DNA of 64,000 nucleotides from Bacillus sp. ISL-18 (GTDB taxonomy: Bacteria > Bacillota > Bacilli > Bacillales > Cytobacillaceae), in assembly GCF_018613415.1 (NCBI RefSeq), contig NZ_JAGGQG010000003.1:62001-126000 (forward strand), in the 5' to 3' direction. Below are positions 13,739 to 20,723 of the stretch, in pieces. The notes under the pieces were generated by a model that saw only the letters and a list, made by a program, of their open reading frames with translations, was not told the origin of the DNA and searched no databases. The position numbers and the translations under genes were made by a program. Every line of letters starts with the position of its first letter. Positions within the stretch are counted from its first letter, which is position 1.

Positions 13739-14143
13739 GTTTAAGCCTCCTAATTATTTTTTATGAATACTATTTTTTAAACATTGAAAATTTTTAGACT
13801 ATAATGATTATAATATCTTTCGTGTTTTTATTCAATATTCTATTTTCTTACTATACTAATAAGTTAATAGGATAAAATCAATTATTACATAGAAGTTTTA
13901 ACCTAATTACAATAAGGTTATGGGCTCGTGAAATAGTAAAATCCATCTGAAATAAATCCAATAAAACTCTTTAATTTTTCCACCCAATCACCTTCCATTA
14001 TTATGAAAAATATAAATAATTTATAGATAGTAGATGAACAGGTCTATCTTCAGAATAAATTATCCTTTATAGGCATTCGCCGTTTCTCCAAACCTACCGT
14101 TACATAATCTATAGGGGAATATCACATAAGGAGAGATGCCTAA
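13739..14143. other. AT-rich intergenic region
   Basis: No gene is seen. It should hold the minus-strand promoter of the ABC operon near 13790-13830, where TATAAT-like sequences occur. An imperfect palindrome, AACCTAATTACAATAAGGTT, lies at 13900-13919. CATAATCTA at 14103-14111 resembles a sigma-K -10 (CATAnnnTA) upstream of the next gene, but no matching -35 is found. Confidence 0.4.
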
Positions 14144-14500
14144 ATGAATCCCTACGAATATTATCAAGTTCCACAAATGCCAATTGAGTATCATAGCTAT
14201 GTTCCTGCAGAACAATATTCATCCTACGTTCCAACAGAACCTATTCATACCTACGCGCCAATTGATCAAGTGAATCATTATGCGCCGCTTGACCCATATG
14301 ACCCAAATCGTCAGCCACAGCAGCTTGAACGCCGAGTGAGTCAGCTTGAAAGACAAAATGAACGTCAAATCAGAGAAATTACTCAACTCCAACGGGATGT
14401 AACTCAGCTCCAAAGACGTCTTGTACGCGTCAATCAGCGAGTAAGAGCAATTGAAAATCGTCTCCACATTCCCTTTACACCTTTTGAAGGAGAATTTTAA
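14144..14500 (+). CDS. Small coiled-coil protein with Tyr/Pro repeats
   Basis: A 118-residue protein in two parts. Residues 1-58 carry loosely repeated Y-x-P units (YVPAEQ, YVPTEP, YAPIDQ, YAPLDP). Residues 59-107 are a heptad-rich coiled coil heavy in Gln, Arg and Leu (LERRVSQLERQNERQIREI). RBS AAGGAGAG is well placed. The architecture, structural and without enzyme motifs, recalls small spore-coat or spore-associated proteins of Bacillus, but I do not recognise a named homologue. Confidence 0.75.
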   Translation: MNPYEYYQVPQMPIEYHSYVPAEQYSSYVPTEPIHTYAPIDQVNHYAPLDPYDPNRQPQQLERRVSQLERQNERQIREITQLQRDVTQLQRRLVRVNQRVRAIENRLHIPFTPFEGEF

Positions 14501-14510
14501 AGTCTCACGA

Positions 14511-14537
14511 AGAACCGGTCTTTTTCCGGTTCTTTTT
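14511..14537 (+). terminator. Intrinsic terminator
   Basis: AGAACCGG pairs with CCGGTTCT around a T-rich loop and is followed by TTTTTC, directly after the coiled-coil gene. Confidence 0.85.
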
Positions 14538-14670
14538 CATTAGTTAGAAATCCTTTCAAATCAATCCATGCCCAAGAAAAAATCCTGTTAACCTTTCTAA
14601 CATCTTCCCTGACAAGAGCTAAAAAATCAGGTAATTTTTGAATATAAACTTATCGAAGGGGAGAATTCAC

Positions 14671-14808
14671 ATGAATCAACGGCATGAAATCAAATTAGCG
14701 ATGCAAATCTTACAATTAGATAAATTACGTGATGAATTATATGAGGAACTCATGAAAACGATGGGCTCTAAAGGACATGAACTTTTACGAAAGCTGCAAA
14801 ACGCCTAA
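14671..14808 (+). CDS. Small hypothetical protein, 45 aa
   Basis: ATG at 14671 with GAAGGGGAG upstream opens a 45-codon frame, MNQRHEIKLAMQILQLDKLR onward, ending in TAA at 14806-14808. It is predicted to be all helical and amphipathic. The TTG start of the next small gene follows by 21 bp behind its own AAAGGAGGG, so the two are probably cotranscribed. It faintly resembles short Spo0E-like helical hairpins but lacks a clear signature, so no function is assigned. Confidence 0.6.
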   Translation: MNQRHEIKLAMQILQLDKLRDELYEELMKTMGSKGHELLRKLQNA

Positions 14809-14829
14809 TATCTAAAGGAGGGAAAGACG

Positions 14830-14988
14830 TTGACAACCCACTTACGAAGAGGCCTTGAACGACTAAAGCAGTTTTACATTAAAAAGCTAGCTGATTCAGA
14901 TATCTTTTATTCATCTGCCGAGCTTCAATCCCTTACCATCAGTGAACTGGAGATTCTTTATAAAAAGTCGAACCCCTCTAAAAAATAA
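14830..14988 (+). CDS. Small basic protein, Fur-regulated basic protein (Fbp)-like
   Basis: TTG at 14830 with AAAGGAGGG 6-7 bp upstream encodes 52 residues. A basic amphipathic helix (LRRGLERLKQFYIKKL) is followed by a strand and the segment LQSLTISELEILYKK. This L-T-x-S-E-L-x-x-x-Y pattern resembles the FbpA-type small basic proteins of Bacillus, which act with the iron-sparing FsrA RNA. No Fur box was identified here, so the assignment is tentative. Confidence 0.55.
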   Translation: MTTHLRRGLERLKQFYIKKLADSDIFYSSAELQSLTISELEILYKKSNPSKK

Positions 14989-15054
14989 CGTCCTCTACTC
15001 CTTTAAAAATTTATTTCATTAAATAATGCATATCAGTACAATTATCCATTTTCA

Positions 15055-15077
15055 TGTGAGAAAATGTAACGTATAAT
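15055..15077 (+). promoter_or_regulatory. TnrA/GlnR box and -10 upstream of tnrA
   Basis: TGTGAGAAAATGTAACG at 15055-15071 matches the TnrA/GlnR consensus TGTNANAWWWTMTNACA at all but two positions. TATAAT follows directly at 15072-15077. The box therefore covers the -35 region of the tnrA promoter, as expected for autoregulation or GlnR repression. Confidence 0.7.
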
Positions 15078-15127
15078 ATTAAAAATATTCTAACTATGGT
15101 AACAACGGGGTGTGGTGAGCGACTAAA

Positions 15128-15454
15128 ATGGGAAAAGATATGTCTTATAAAGATAAAAAAGTTATTACCATTGGTATTGTCAGAGATCTGACCGGGCTGT
15201 CCGAAAGACAAATCCGTTATTATGAAGAAAGAAAACTGATTTTCCCTGAACGGTCTCCAGGCGGGAGCCGTAAATTTTCCTTTACCGATGTCGAACTACT
15301 AATGGATATTGCCAACAAAATCGAGGATGGAATTCAAACACATGAAATTAGAAAGGAAATGCTGCGGGAACAGAAGAAACAGAATCAGGAGGATATTCGC
15401 AGGAAAATGATTCAAGGACAGCTTAATGCCCAGTTTGGTATACGAAAAAGGTAA
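15128..15454 (+). CDS. tnrA: Nitrogen-responsive MerR-family regulator TnrA
   Basis: A 108-residue MerR-type regulator. [40 protein letters not shown] and [18 protein letters not shown] align from memory with B. subtilis TnrA over the DNA-binding half. The short C-terminal tail, ending [12 protein letters not shown], matches the TnrA segment that contacts feedback-inhibited glutamine synthetase. The tail is shorter than in GlnR, and no glnA is adjacent, which favours TnrA over GlnR. It controls ammonium transport and nitrogen assimilation genes; amtB follows with its own box. Confidence 0.9.
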
Positions 15455-15464
15455 CACAGATTAG

Positions 15465-15503
15465 AAAAGGCCTCGATTCTTTTAGTAGAAACGAGGCTTT
15501 TTC
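15465..15503 (+). terminator. Intrinsic terminator after tnrA
   Basis: AAAAGGCCTCG pairs with CGAGGCTTTTT (one G-U pair) around a loop of about 16 bases and ends in a T-run. Confidence 0.85.
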
Positions 15504-15541
15504 TATGACTGCTTAGGGGAATCCCCCCCTCCTAAAAACCC

Positions 15542-15558
15542 TGTTAGAAAATCTCCCA
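15542..15558 (+). promoter_or_regulatory. TnrA box upstream of amtB
   Basis: TGTTAGAAAATCTCCCA matches TGTNANAWWWTMTNACA with one mismatch. A TAAAGT hexamer at 15588-15593 could serve as -10, placing the box centre near -50, the spacing used for activation at B. subtilis nrgAB. The -10 choice is inference. Confidence 0.75.
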
Positions 15559-15647
15559 CAATTATAGATACAATACCCTGATTGATGTAAAGTTACAACT
15601 ACAGAGGATGTTATAAAAATTAACATCATTAAAAAGGGGGAGTATAA

Positions 15648-16910
15648 ATGGATACGACATACTTAATGAACAGTCTATGGGTAATGTTAGGAGCAGTCCT
15701 CGTTATTTTAATGATCGGTGGTTTTATCTTATTAGAAACAGGATCAACCCGTATGAAAAATGCTGGACATATCGCTGGTAAAACCATCTTAACATTTAGT
15801 ATCAGTTCCATTATCTTTTGGGCAGTGGGTTTTGGTTTAATTTTTGGTAAGGGAAATGCACTGATTGGTTTCTCGAATTTCTTGTATTCAGGCTATGATA
15901 TGGATAGTTTATCACTCTCTGGTTCAGTTTTCTTTTTATTCCAATTAGCTTTTGCAGGTATTTCTTTAACGATTGCGTTTGGCGGGTTTGCAGAGCGGGC
16001 TAAACTAAGTGCTTACCTTGTCTTTGCTGTTCTTTTCTCAGTCATTGTGTATCCTCCAATCGCTCATTGGATTTGGGGCGGCGGCTGGTTAGCTGAGCAT
16101 GGTAAACAAGACTTCGCTGGTTCAACGGTTGTTCACTTAACCGGCGCAATGGCGGCACTTGCTGCTACCATTCTATTAAAGCCGCGGATTGGAAAATATA
16201 ACAAAGACGGTTCCGCTAATAATCTTGCCGGACACAACCAAGTATTTACAGCCTTAAGCGTCTTACTATTATGGGTTGGCTGGTTCGGATTCAATGCAGG
16301 CAGTACGTTATCGGTTGACAAAGGATTCTTCGGGTTTGTTGCCATGAATACCAATCTTGCTGCTGCAGCTGGAACAATTGCAGCCATGATCGTTTCTTGG
16401 ATCGTATTAGGGAAAGCAGATGTCCCCATGATGTTAAACGGTGCTTTAGCCGGCCTTGTAGCAATCACAGCATCCTGTGCTTTCGTAGAAACCTGGGCCG
16501 CCGTCCTTATTGGCTTTATCGCTGGAATATTAGTGTTTTATAGTATCAGATTTTTTGAGAAAGTTAAAATTGATGACCCGATTGCAGCTCTATCTGTTCA
16601 CGGGACCGCCGGAGTTTGGGGAACCTTATCGAACGGATTCTTCGCAACAAAAGAATTAGCCACTGTTGGTAAGCCAGGTTTATTTTACGGCGGCGGATTA
16701 CATCAGCTTGGTGTTCAAGCATTAGGGGTATTCACCTGTGCCGCCTTCGCCTTTATCGTTTCCTTCATTCTTCTAGCAGTAATGAAGAAAGTAATGAACG
16801 GATTACGTGTCACTGAAGAAGAGGAAATTATCGGTCTAGATATGAGCGAGCACGGCAGCTACGGTTACCCTGAATTGGTAAAAGCAGAACAGCAAATTAA
16901 AGTTCAATAA
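15648..16910 (+). CDS. amtB: Ammonium transporter
   Basis: A 420-residue Amt/Rh family channel with about 11 membrane spans. The N-terminal LMIGGFILLETGSTRMKNAG, the pore histidine in STVVHLTGAMAA, and the second pore histidine in SVHGTAGVWG are all visible. It imports ammonium when nitrogen is limiting. RBS is GGGGGAG. It sits behind a TnrA box and next to tnrA. In B. subtilis the homologue nrgA is followed by the PII gene nrgB; no PII gene is seen here. Confidence 0.96.
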   Translation: MDTTYLMNSLWVMLGAVLVILMIGGFILLETGSTRMKNAGHIAGKTILTFSISSIIFWAVGFGLIFGKGNALIGFSNFLYSGYDMDSLSLSGSVFFLFQLAFAGISLTIAFGGFAERAKLSAYLVFAVLFSVIVYPPIAHWIWGGGWLAEHGKQDFAGSTVVHLTGAMAALAATILLKPRIGKYNKDGSANNLAGHNQVFTALSVLLLWVGWFGFNAGSTLSVDKGFFGFVAMNTNLAAAAGTIAAMIVSWIVLGKADVPMMLNGALAGLVAITASCAFVETWAAVLIGFIAGILVFYSIRFFEKVKIDDPIAALSVHGTAGVWGTLSNGFFATKELATVGKPGLFYGGGLHQLGVQALGVFTCAAFAFIVSFILLAVMKKVMNGLRVTEEEEIIGLDMSEHGSYGYPELVKAEQQIKVQ

Positions 16911-16913
16911 TTG

Positions 16914-16941
16914 AAGGAATCAACAGCGGTCATTCCTTTTT
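16914..16941 (+). terminator. Terminator-like hairpin between amtB and the DUF294 gene
   Basis: AAGGAAT (16914-16920) pairs with ATTCCTT (16932-16938), followed by TT. It is weak (7 bp), so partial read-through from amtB into the next genes is plausible. Confidence 0.55.
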
Positions 16942-16977
16942 ACAGGGCATGACTGCTAGTTGATTTAGGGGGTGTAC

Positions 16978-17967
16978 ATGTTGCAGCATGACCCATATTC
17001 AGTATTAATTCAGATTAGAGACGAAAAACTGAAAAATGTTTGCCATAACCATTTTAAACTGAACGAGCTACATGATAATTTGATTCACCGGGTAGCAGCC
17101 ATCGCGATAAACCAGGTTTCGAGTCAACACGGACCTCCTCCATCACCATTTACATTCTTTGTCATGGGCAGCGCTGGCAGGATGGAACAATCGGTATGGA
17201 GCGACCAAGACCACGGAATGATTTATCTTGATTCATCGGACGATGCCAAATCATACTTTTTAACATTAGGAAAAGAAATTTCGAAAGGACTTTATCAAGC
17301 AGGATACAGATATTGTGACGGGGGCGTGATGGCCAGCAACCCATTCTGGTGTAAATCGATTAGTGAATGGGAGCAGCAATTATCAAACTGGATGATTGAA
17401 TCCACTTGGGAATCGATCCGTTATCTTCTCATATTTCTAGACGGAAGATCAATCTATGGAGAGAACACCTATGTTGAAAAGCTAAAGAACCATATTTATC
17501 AAAACATGAAGCAACATCATTTACTGCATAAATCACTAAGCAATACTCTCCATCTCAAAAAAGGAATCAACGTTTTAGGTCAGTTCTTAACAGAAACACA
17601 CGGAAATCATGCCGGTAAACTAAATATCAAAGAAATTGGTCTTTTTCCATATGTAAATGCGATTCGTCTCCTTTCGATGAAAGAAAGATTGCACGAATCC
17701 TCATCCCTTTTACGTCTCGACAAAATACCAGAGATGTATTTCCCTGCAAGTGACAAAGCTTTTTTCAAAAAGCAATTCTTAAAACTGCTATCCTACCGAT
17801 TATTATTTTCTGACCATAAAGATTATGATTCAGGTCATTATTTAACTGTCACCCAACTGACAAAAGAACAGGCTAGAGAGGTAAAGGAAATCATCAAAAA
17901 TGGCGCTGCTCTCTTTCATCATATGAAAAGGTTACTAGAAAAGGAGGATTCAGATGAGAATAAATAA
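16978..17967 (+). CDS. DUF294 nucleotidyltransferase-like protein (GlnD-like fold)
   Basis: A 329-residue protein made only of the DUF294 nucleotidyltransferase domain and its DUF294_C partner. The active-site pattern GSAGRME (64-70) and SDQDHG (75-80) has the glycine-serine and paired aspartates of GlnD-type nucleotidyltransferases. The cNMP/CBS sensor domains often fused in front of DUF294 are missing. The ATG at 16978 is preferred over a GTG at 16972 because AGGGGG lies about 5 bp upstream. Its last 14 bases overlap the exonuclease gene. The target protein or nucleotide is unknown. Confidence 0.85.
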   Translation: MLQHDPYSVLIQIRDEKLKNVCHNHFKLNELHDNLIHRVAAIAINQVSSQHGPPPSPFTFFVMGSAGRMEQSVWSDQDHGMIYLDSSDDAKSYFLTLGKEISKGLYQAGYRYCDGGVMASNPFWCKSISEWEQQLSNWMIESTWESIRYLLIFLDGRSIYGENTYVEKLKNHIYQNMKQHHLLHKSLSNTLHLKKGINVLGQFLTETHGNHAGKLNIKEIGLFPYVNAIRLLSMKERLHESSSLLRLDKIPEMYFPASDKAFFKKQFLKLLSYRLLFSDHKDYDSGHYLTVTQLTKEQAREVKEIIKNGAALFHHMKRLLEKEDSDENK

Positions 17968-18688
17968 TATGATCCAATTTTTTCGTCAAATATCTGGAAA
18001 AGCAAACTCAAACCTTTTCGCAAGTTTATCAGATCAATCCTCACTGCAGCAGAAGGCTTTCCTTAGAGAAATACAAAGAGAAATGAAAGAAAAGAACAGC
18101 TTAGACGTTCCGCTGAAAGAATTAAGGGTGGTCGTCTTTGATCTAGAAACGACCGGTTTTTATCCCGAGAAAGGTGACCAAATCATTTCCATTGGTGCGG
18201 TCAAAATGACAGGCGACCAACTAAAGGAACAGGAAACCTTTTATACATTAGTAAAATCGGATCTTCCACTATCAAATGAACTATCTGCTTTAACCAATAT
18301 TTATGAAGAGGACCTAAGCACTGCCCCGATTGCTCAAGAAGCACTACTGCAATTCTTTCAATTTATCAAAAGTGATCTTCTCGTTGCACACCATTCCAGT
18401 CACGAGCAGGCCTTTATGAAAAAAATCACAAGCGAGGTATTACGAACAAGATTCGACCATCGAATTGTCGATACTTCTTTTCTCATCCGCCTTTCAAACC
18501 CCTATATGAAATCCGCTCCACTAGAAGAGGTTTGCGAGATTTGCGGTATTGAGGTGGAGAATCGACACCACGCTCTCAGTGATGCCATCATGACAGCAAA
18601 AGTATGGAGATATTATTTACAGCTAGCAGAAGAAAAAGGCTTCCGCTATTTACGTCAGGTTTATGAATATTTAGCAAAAATCGGATGA
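17954..18688 (+). CDS. DnaQ-like 3'-5' exonuclease (DEDDh)
   Basis: A 244-residue protein with an N-terminal helical lead (1-55) and a DEDDh exonuclease domain. Exo I is DLETTG with Asp63 and Glu65. Exo III is HHALSDA with His205 and Asp210. Exo II, normally HNAxFDxxF, reads HHSSHEQAF, so the second catalytic Asp is replaced by Glu151. The ATG has AAGGAGGATTCAG upstream, inside the end of the DUF294 gene, so the two are translationally coupled. DUF294 genes are often paired with such exonucleases. Role unknown; it is too small to be a polymerase subunit. Confidence 0.85.
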   Translation: MRINNMIQFFRQISGKANSNLFASLSDQSSLQQKAFLREIQREMKEKNSLDVPLKELRVVVFDLETTGFYPEKGDQIISIGAVKMTGDQLKEQETFYTLVKSDLPLSNELSALTNIYEEDLSTAPIAQEALLQFFQFIKSDLLVAHHSSHEQAFMKKITSEVLRTRFDHRIVDTSFLIRLSNPYMKSAPLEEVCEICGIEVENRHHALSDAIMTAKVWRYYLQLAEEKGFRYLRQVYEYLAKIG

Positions 18689-18865
18689 TAAACTACTATT
18701 CTAGTCTAATATTTTCACCTATTAGCATAGTAGTTTCCATCTGGTCATTTATTCCCCTCTCCCTTACTTACTACTGAAATTTCTCCGAATTTCTTCTACT
18801 CACTAGTAACGAATAAAAAATTTTTTAAAAATTTTTTATTTACAAATTCCTTATCATACCAATAA

Positions 18866-18879
18866 TGAAAACGCTATCA
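18866..18879. promoter_or_regulatory. Perfect cre (CcpA) site upstream of ilvD promoter
   Basis: TGAAAACGCTATCA matches TGWAANCGNTNWCA at every position. Its centre lies about 78 bp upstream of the predicted ilvD start site, a position from which CcpA activates the ilv-leu operon in B. subtilis. Confidence 0.7.
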
Positions 18880-18915
18880 GATAAATTAATTTGTTAGAAT
18901 TGTCAGATTTCTATA

Positions 18916-18944
18916 TTGACCATGTTTTCAATTGGTTGTATGAT
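18916..18944 (+). promoter_or_regulatory. Sigma-A promoter of ilvD
   Basis: TTGACC (18916-18921) and TATGAT (18939-18944) are separated by exactly 17 bp. Predicted start is near 18951, leaving about 100 nt of untranslated leader before ilvD. Confidence 0.7.
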
Positions 18945-19052
18945 TACTGAAAATAAATCATCAATCATTTACAGACGATTTGTAACAATCGACGGAATGA
19001 CTTGTTACCCAGAAGGGGCAAACCATGCTATTGTCAGTTAGGAGCTAAGAAT

Positions 19053-20723
19053 ATGCGAAGCGATATGATTAAAAAGGGAATTGATCGTGCTCCCCACCGA
19101 AGTTTATTATATGCAACAGGGGTAAAAACGAGTGATTTGGAAAAACCATTTATCGGAGTTTGTAACTCGTATATTGACATTATCCCAGGACATAAACATC
19201 TTAATCATTTCGGGGAAATTGTGAAAGAGGCAATCCGGGAAGCCGGTGGTATTCCATTTGAGTTTAATACAATCGGCGTCGATGACGGAATTGCGATGGG
19301 TCATATAGGGATGCGCTACTCCCTTCCAAGCCGTGAAATTATCGCCGACAGTGCTGAAACAGTCATTAACGCACACTGGTTCGATGGTGTTTTTTATATC
19401 CCAAACTGTGACAAAATCACTCCAGGGATGTTAATGGCTGCCGCAAGAACTAACGTGCCATCTGTTTTTGTATCTGGCGGTCCAATGGAAGCTGGCGTTT
19501 CACCATCGACAGGTAAAAATCTTTCCCTTACTTCAGTTTTTGAAGGCGTAGGTGCTTACCACAACGGTACAATCAGCCAACAGCAACTGCTTGAAATTGA
19601 AACCAATGCCTGTCCTACATGCGGTTCCTGTTCCGGAATGTTTACCGCGAACTCCATGAACTGTTTAATGGAAGTTTTAGGAATGACGGTTCCTGGTAAC
19701 GGTACGATGGTTGCTACATCCGAAGAAAGACATGAACTCATTAGGCAAGCTGCTAGACATCTTATTGAATTAGTTAAAAATGATATTAAACCACGTGACA
19801 TCATTACTAGAGAAGCCATTGATAATGCCTTTGCACTAGATATGGCCATGGGCGGCTCCACTAATACCGTGTTACACACTTTAGCCATCGCCCATGAAGC
19901 CGGGATCGATTATGATCTTAGCGAAATTAATAAAATTGCTGAGAGGGTTCCATACCTTTCCAAGATTATGCCAGCATCTGATTATTCAATGGACGATGTT
20001 CATCGTGCCGGTGGTGTAAGTGCCATCATCAATGAACTTTATAAAGTTGAAGGTGCTTTGCATGATAACTGCCTAACGATTACAGGAAAAACTCTTCGTG
20101 AAAATGTGAAGGAAGCAACAATCACAAATGAAGCGGTCATCCGGACAAAAGATAATCCATATAGCCCAGTTGGTGGACTATCCATCCTATATGGAAACAT
20201 TGCTCCAGATGGTGCCGTCATCAAGGTTGGCGCTGTAGATCCTTCCATTAAGACATTCTTGGGAGAGGCAATCGTGTTTGATTCCCAAGATGAGGCTCAA
20301 GAAAACATTAATAACGGTACTGTAAAGGCAGGCCACGTAGTGGTTATCCGCTACGAAGGTCCTAAAGGCGGACCAGGAATGCCGGAAATGCTTGCTCCTA
20401 CTTCCGCTATTATGGGCCGGGGTTTAGGAAAAGAAGTTGCCCTAATCACAGACGGCCGCTTCTCAGGTGCAAGCCGTGGAATCTCGATCGGTCATATTTC
20501 ACCAGAAGCAGCAGAGGGTGGACCAATCGGTCTCGTTGAAAATGGTGACAAAATTTTAATCGACCTTGAAGCTCGTTCAATTGAACTTGTGGTTGATGAT
20601 GAAGTACTTGCCCAAAGACGTACGGCATGGGTAAAACCTGAGCCGAAAATTAAAACTGGTTATCTAGCGAAATATGCAAAGCTTGTTACATCTGCCAATA
20701 CTGGCGGAATTATGAAAATATAA
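19053..20723 (+). CDS. ilvD: Dihydroxy-acid dehydratase
   Basis: A 556-residue IlvD that dehydrates 2,3-dihydroxy-isovalerate and -methylvalerate to the keto acids of valine, leucine and isoleucine. Cluster cysteines Cys37 (VCNSYIDI), Cys119 (NCDKITPG) and Cys193 (CGSCSGM) are present, as expected for an Fe-S dehydratase. The ATG at 19053 is chosen because TTAGGAG sits 8 bp upstream; a longer frame from 19002 has no support. It has its own promoter and cre site, and lies upstream of the T-box-controlled ilvB operon. Confidence 0.97.

Follow-up and report, generated by a model that had tools for sequence, protein, structure and literature searches.

An amtB-DUF294-exonuclease operon split from PII in Bacillus sp. 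ISL-18 and its relatives, and its possible role in ammonium channel control

Introduction

What do a nucleotidyltransferase-like protein and an exonuclease do beside an ammonium channel gene that has no PII gene next to it? The question is raised by amtB and the two genes downstream of it, which encode a short DUF294 protein and a DnaQ-like exonuclease, in Bacillus sp. ISL-18. These genes lie in the window, by which we mean the whole 64,000-nucleotide stretch analysed (assembly GCF_018613415.1, contig NZ_JAGGQG010000003.1, positions 62,001-126,000 of the forward strand), and all coordinates below are those of the window. The surveys described here make it close to certain that amtB, DUF294 and exonuclease genes form a conserved operon that is split from PII. 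We tentatively propose, at slightly worse than even chances, that this is a nitrogen-controlled operon in which one Amt clade carries a two-enzyme module in place of PII.

Results

A conserved three-gene operon split from PII

Reading frames and domain scans placed the following genes in a row on one strand and bore out the open reading frame positions that the original prediction, made from the DNA letters alone, had given for amtB and the two enzyme genes:

15128..15454, + strand: gene for a TnrA-like MerR regulator (NF053740 TransRegTnrAGPos, 179 bits against a cut-off of 140)
15648..16910, + strand: amtB, an ammonium channel of the DUF294-linked Amt clade (TIGR00836, 402.9 bits; clade support 100/98)
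16972..17967, + strand: short DUF294 gene, nucleotidyltransferase plus DUF294_C (PF03445, PF10335; likelier start ATG 16978)
17954..18688, + strand: DnaQ-like RNase_T exonuclease gene, PRK07740 (Pfam and NCBIfam; ExoII Asp replaced by Glu, E151)

The two enzyme genes share 14 bases, and the exonuclease gene has its own AAGGAGG at 17941-17947. The listed DUF294 start, GTG 16972, coincides in part with the ribosome site AGGGGG, and translation more probably begins at ATG 16978. DUF294 is present in one copy only in the 6.2 Mb host genome, the assembly of which is flagged as 8.27% contaminated; the closest named relative among the matches listed is from Neobacillus drentensis JC05, with a 96% identical DUF294 protein.

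We surveyed 121 genomes drawn evenly from the family, 100 of which have DUF294. Sorted by open frame, the matches fell into 94 short copies from 93 genomes, a further 45 that were long or fragments of long ones, and one 42-residue remnant; neither this remnant (in G053) nor two broken long copies (in G027 and G061) were counted as short. Counts of adjacent Amt and exonuclease genes are floors, taken among about 150 matches listed for each, and PII matches of 5e-12 or weaker (family) or 6e-10 or weaker (class) were left uncounted. At least 93 of the 94 short copies had an Amt upstream on the same strand, and at least 93 had the exonuclease downstream, which excludes chance juxtaposition. The sole short copy without a listed Amt (G031) follows an Amt that is broken in frame. 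One genome contained an Amt-DUF294 pair without the exonuclease, on a long branch of the Amt tree (G047:C16, L043 = L218), and it also has a second, complete set. Short DUF294 and an exonuclease of at least 250 bits were jointly present in 93 genomes and jointly missing in 28. The pair is tied to amt genes and strictly co-inherited in the family, and the possibility that it is unrelated to them, which the original prediction had allowed for, fails. This arrangement, with the three genes consecutive and both enzymes either present or absent, would form the first step of the mechanism that we propose.

No strong PII match was found within 3 kb of a short DUF294 copy in the family sample (0/94), and all 23 strong PII genes of that sample adjoin an Amt. 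Among the 150 family Amts listed, 93 were accompanied by DUF294, 23 by PII, 34 by neither and none by both. Both systems occurred at separate places in 17 genomes, the module without a strong PII in 76 and PII only in three. The host genome has three Amt genes and two PII genes (on C19 and C11), each PII gene beside another Amt; the description of the system as lacking PII thus holds at the locus and not across the genome. The Amt on C11, directly before its PII gene, has one in-frame TGA in this contamination-flagged assembly.

The split extended to a class sample of 200 genomes, three of them from the family, from which three weak DUF294 rows were left out. Here the 150 Amts listed were accompanied by DUF294 in 66 cases, by PII in 39, by neither in 44 and by both in one. 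At least 67 of the 86 copies under 500 residues lay within 3 kb of a listed Amt (64/83 outside the family), a count in which one copy scored as lacking an Amt (G186) is in fact adjacent to one, and none of the 30 long class copies lay near an Amt among the matches listed. In a phylum sample of 199 genomes, 39 had DUF294. With six weak matches in short frames (E 5e-5 to 5e-4) set aside, short copies were confined there to the host genome and three genomes of a second family in the class; all four stood beside an Amt, and the Amt-DUF294-exonuclease order was kept in all three second-family genomes. Among named genomes, at least 596 stretches matched and 540 encode a relative. In the best 80 of these 540, an Amt was upstream in 80/80, the exonuclease was downstream in 79/80, and PII, searched with a profile from 13 sequences, was found in 0/80; a tnrA-like gene was in the stretch at 62/80 loci, on the same strand at 58 and on the opposite strand at four.

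Longer relatives accompany sodium:solute symporters

The original prediction had suggested that the module might be tied to ammonium status. The association is not ammonium-specific, since longer relatives of DUF294 accompany sodium:solute symporters. The long proteins carry N-terminal CBS and cNMP-type domains, unlike the short form, and are presumably of the COG2905 type. In the family, 43 genomes have a long copy, and in 20/20 loci fetched the symporter, long DUF294 and exonuclease genes were consecutive, with DUF4212 in front in 19/20 (Pfam names were read from one locus, and the remaining loci were assigned by similarity). We also inspected ten annotated plasmid loci, chosen from 40 of 61 matching records. 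All ten had an exonuclease gene no more than four genes from DUF294. Six had a symporter directly upstream (Ruegeria, Paracoccus denitrificans, Rhizobium, Microvirga, Pseudomonas aeruginosa and Salinivibrio), and none was directly upstream in the plasmid loci of Hymenobacter, Vibrio tritonius, Paracoccus aminovorans and Cytobacillus. In other classes of the phylum, 17 long loci, some of them cut by contig ends, yielded an exonuclease in 11 and a symporter in five, by profile matching.

Some symporter-linked long loci carry acetate genes. Outside this class but within the phylum, the neighbours of long DUF294 include aconitase genes at two loci (L250, L253) and genes for acetyl-CoA synthetase and phosphoenolpyruvate carboxykinase at another (L252). 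At three alphaproteobacterial loci (L231, L232, L233) the exonucleases are 479-659 residues long, with long N-terminal parts that have no Pfam match; at the first two, proteins of 172 and 165 residues, also without a Pfam match, stand between DUF294 and the exonuclease. In P. aeruginosa, we take PA3233 to be a DUF294 protein and PA3232 to be the nuclease. The propionate data of one study report that PA3232-PA3235, which includes an ActP homologue, was about 16-fold up with propionate as carbon source, that PA3233-PA3235 transcripts were 2-fold down after propionate addition, and that deletion of the ActP homologue caused no growth defect on propionate (PMC9765439).

DUF294 is predicted to be a GlnE/GlnD-type nucleotidyltransferase

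Both Pfam domains of the DUF294 protein scored above curated cut-offs: PF03445 with 126.2 bits (cut-off 21; E 1.1e-36) and PF10335 with 55.1 bits (cut-off 22.5; E 9.7e-15). They contain the following elements:

17167..17217, + strand: nucleotidyltransferase motif GSxGRxEQ...SDQDHG, residues 66-82 (ten motif residues invariant, 41/41)
17521..17904, + strand: DUF294_C domain, residues 184-311 (Pfam domain scan)

The GlnD-like site reported in the original prediction is present as GxxGRxE-SDxD, and G66, S67, G69, R70, E72, S77, D78, Q79, D80 and G82 are invariant in all 41 short DUF294 proteins compared. At E 0.001, the Pfam scan of the 331-residue protein found DUF294 and DUF294_C and nothing else, neither HD nor ACT, in agreement with the claim that sensor domains are missing. 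A search of the Protein Data Bank by sequence with the DUF294 profile gave no match at E up to 1. The structure model was confident (predicted local distance difference test score 92.8), and its nearest solved folds include glutamine-synthetase adenylyltransferase. The model has the fold of a GlnE catalytic half; CD-NTase, CutA and TUTase appeared only as weak matches. The confident predicted fold and the intact motif suggest that DUF294 is probably a protein nucleotidyltransferase of the GlnE/GlnD type. A nucleotide-modification module, as was first suggested, is the best reading of the predicted fold. In the second step of the mechanism, DUF294 would thus act as such an enzyme without the sensor domains of its symporter-linked relatives.

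An alternative that we consider improbable is that DUF294 modifies a soluble nitrogen protein, such as TnrA, GlnR or, as GlnE does, glutamine synthetase, with Amt serving as an operon partner that delivers the signal. The adenylyltransferase among the nearest folds and the same-strand tnrA-like gene at 58/80 named loci would fit it. So would the two GlnA proteins of the genome, which read NIYVMSKEE and DIFHMNDEE at the position of the loop that is adenylylated in E. coli, NLYDLPPEE. However, the long relatives go with symporters, and some with acetate genes; neither glnA, searched in the host genome, is on the DUF294 contig; and B. subtilis, used as a control, gave no DUF294 match although the Tyr loop is presumably present there too.

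The exonuclease is a candidate reverser of the modification

The exonuclease scored above the Pfam RNase_T cut-off and has a DnaQ-like fold. Canonical DEDDh exonucleases have five catalytic residues, D, E, D, H and D. Four of these are found here as D63, E65, H205 and D210, and the ExoII Asp is replaced by Glu (E151); all five positions are invariant in the 40 short-form-linked exonucleases compared, so the canonical set is incomplete in 40/40. The ExoII Asp is retained in 20/20 long-form exonucleases of Bacillaceae. In the third step, the exonuclease would hydrolyse the protein-nucleotide phosphodiester or trim a short nucleotide chain, making the modification reversible. That it acts as the reverser is possible, at a little under even odds.

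The pair might instead make and destroy a small nucleotide signal, or modify RNA 3' ends (of tRNA or other RNA), tuned to the state of the transporter. A nucleotidyltransferase fold plus a nuclease is also a synthase-plus-degrader layout, and the best fold matches of the exonuclease model are the PolC, DinG and DnaQ nucleases; the fold match of the DUF294 model makes RNA a less likely substrate of that protein. We give this explanation about one chance in five.

The linked Amts form a clade with an invariant tail tyrosine

In a tree of 90 Amts, the DUF294-linked Amts and nine orphans, Amts of the same clade in genomes that have neither enzyme, formed one clade (53 rows, support 100/98). The PII-linked Amts stood apart, 18/19 in one clade (100/99). 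Among ten orphan loci read, one retains a DUF294 remnant and one retains remnants of both genes, suggesting that an Amt of this clade can persist after the module is lost. The opposite, a module outlasting its Amt, may have occurred in the family sample at G031 alone, where the Amt is broken in frame. The C-terminal tail of the Amt reads VTEEEEIIGLDMSEHGSYGYPE and contains the following element:

16860..16868, + strand: codons Y405-G406-Y407 of the Amt C-terminal tail (Y405 in 41/41 DUF294-linked and 0/20 PII-linked Amts)

Y405, Y407, P408 and E409 are invariant in the 41 linked Amts, and the PII-linked Amts have P, R or K at position 405 (20/20). A Tyr is second after HG in 79/79 readable named loci; at another (L187) the frame ends early. 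The invariant Tyr fits a tyrosine target and equally a mere clade mark. Relaxation of the tail in module-less Amts was considered and rejected: compared with linked Amts, change is increased in the tail (p 0.006) but also in the body (p 0.0002), p values that are optimistic, the rows being related. A tail motif shared with symporters was likewise considered as a target signal and dropped: RYPEQM occurs in the tail of 20/20 long-DUF294-linked Bacillaceae symporters and YGYPEQM in that of 3/3 second-family Amts. The likeness, a possible convergence, is no proof, because the symporters in any case share 87-95% identity with the query.

The fourth and weakest step of the mechanism holds that the enzymes would act on the Amt, in the simplest case on its C-terminal tail, and that uptake would be controlled without PII. 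We consider Amt as the direct target unlikely, if conceivable. The fullest version is a covalent, PII-free switch in which DUF294 nucleotidylates the Amt tail at Y405 or Y407, the exonuclease is the de-nucleotidylase, and the same pair, equipped with cNMP and CBS sensors, serves symporters elsewhere; in this detail it is improbable. More broadly, the enzyme pair may be an undescribed on/off control of a transporter.

Several observations weigh against this mechanism. On the side of the enzymes, DUF294 matched the GlnD and GlnE sequence profiles weakly (hhalign probability 2% or less; GlnD 2%, E 0.024). A fold match alone demonstrates no function, and the substrate, nucleotide and activity assigned to DUF294 are all predictions. 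D157 is invariant in short DUF294 but Ser in 20 Bacillaceae long forms, and Glu at the ExoII position might weaken exonuclease catalysis. On the side of the target, Y405 is kept in 10/10 Amts without the module and the YPE motif in 9/10; because all ten orphans keep this clade mark, Amt as target is the weakest step. The tails of module-less Amts are not relaxed beyond the body (4:19 against 1:23, p 0.19), two Bacillaceae symporters in genomes without long DUF294 (G025, G042) keep the same RYPEQM tail, and DUF294-linked symporter tails share no tyrosine across phyla, those from other classes and alphaproteobacterial plasmids ending differently. As to the partition, one class Amt (G364) lies near DUF294 and also has a weak PII match on the opposite strand at a distance of 2.4 kb. 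Of the 19 short class copies without a listed Amt nearby, two or more (G470, G397) are true exceptions, their only Amt lying elsewhere.

Upstream sites and the intercistronic hairpin

The regions around amtB contain the following elements:

15542..15558, + strand: candidate TnrA/GlnR-type box (one mismatch to TGTNANAWWWTNTNACA)
15609..15625, + strand: second candidate TnrA/GlnR-type box, TGTTATAAAAATTAACA (one mismatch, counted by eye)
16917..16966, + strand: intercistronic hairpin in the amtB/DUF294 gap (61-base gap, z -6.5; without a T run)

We take TGTNANAWWWTNTNACA to be the TnrA/GlnR consensus. In 74/81 loci, the 250 bases upstream of amtB contained a site that departs from it at no more than two positions, compared with 8% of mononucleotide shuffles. 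Upstream of the tnrA-like gene, 14144-14500 encodes a small protein, rich in Tyr and Pro at its N-terminus and in Gln and Arg in its C-terminal half.

The hairpin after amtB had been described as weak and terminator-like. It is strong: the gap (16911-16971) has a folding energy of -25.8 kcal/mol, matched by 0/200 shuffles, and forms one long stem; a sub-stretch with only the short stem first proposed is ordinary (z -0.7). No terminator was called in the gap, and the hairpin is no clear terminator, because no T run follows it. Similarly placed hairpins of differing sequence were found at other loci, the gap plus short flanks being structured in 28/81 (z below -3 against mononucleotide shuffles), and an Rfam scan of 14000-19500 found no family. 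The hairpin may lower or uncouple expression of the enzyme genes.

That the genes are a plain co-expressed pair with a housekeeping nuclease, near Amt through shared nitrogen control and without function on it, is also improbable: superfamily exonucleases are common (121/121 genomes match the model at 1e-30, 28 of them only with weaker paralogues) and the box before amtB could by itself hold the genes together, but the strict co-presence and co-absence of the two enzymes, the near-exclusive split from PII in two surveys and the parallel association with a second transporter class argue against it.

Discussion

Control of Amt without PII is at issue in 76 of the 93 module genomes, which have no PII gene by the cut used. 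Should the pair act as proposed, a channel would be under covalent control by enzymes, and DUF294, a Pfam family that still bears a placeholder name, would gain a function. The recurrence of both enzymes behind sodium symporters in other bacteria would also be accounted for.

Comparison with known systems

The original prediction regarded the module as possibly new, but the amtB-DUF294-dnaQ operon was noted in Bacillales in 2012, in footnote d of Table 1 of PMC3412718. Eight Bacillales rows bear this footnote and six of them list no glnK, with Geobacillus and Paenibacillus polymyxa among the hosts listed; the table and its footnote give the same three genes, without analysis of the enzymes, their coupling, the PII split or the symporter relatives. 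We found no experimental test of the function of the DUF294-exonuclease pair in the open-licence literature. As far as that literature shows, no publication combines the strict coupling and the PII split with the GlnE-like fold and the relatives beside symporters.

In NrgA-NrgB and AmtB-GlnK, an Amt gene likewise stands beside a small dedicated regulator gene. The regulator there is PII, whereas two enzymes are found here, the Amts linked to them branch apart (100/98), and no PII gene is adjacent at this locus. The cNMP-CBS-DUF294 systems, of the PA3232-PA3235 type, likewise have a transporter, here an acetate or other symporter, with DUF294 and an RNase_T exonuclease consecutive or nearly so; they differ in their N-terminal CBS and cNMP-type domains, in the transporter family and in an exonuclease that, in Bacillaceae, keeps the ExoII Asp. 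GlnE has two catalytic halves, compared with one nucleotidyltransferase domain in the 331 residues of DUF294; no glnA is on the contig here, and reversal would fall to a separate enzyme. GlnD shares the motifs GxxGRxExxxxSDxD and [DE]xRxxxG with short DUF294. It carries HD hydrolase and ACT sensor domains; short DUF294 has neither and no PII at its locus (0/94). In its domain grouping, PMC3710099 places DUF294_C with the C-terminal domains of GlnD and GlnE. MntA-HepT is described in PMC7641770 as a system with a GSx10DxD-type nucleotidyltransferase that performs protein polyadenylylation and acts on a protein tyrosine, and DUF294 likewise reads G66 S67 x10 D78 x D80. Against these systems, we rate the module as GlnE/GlnD-like control recast for transporters.

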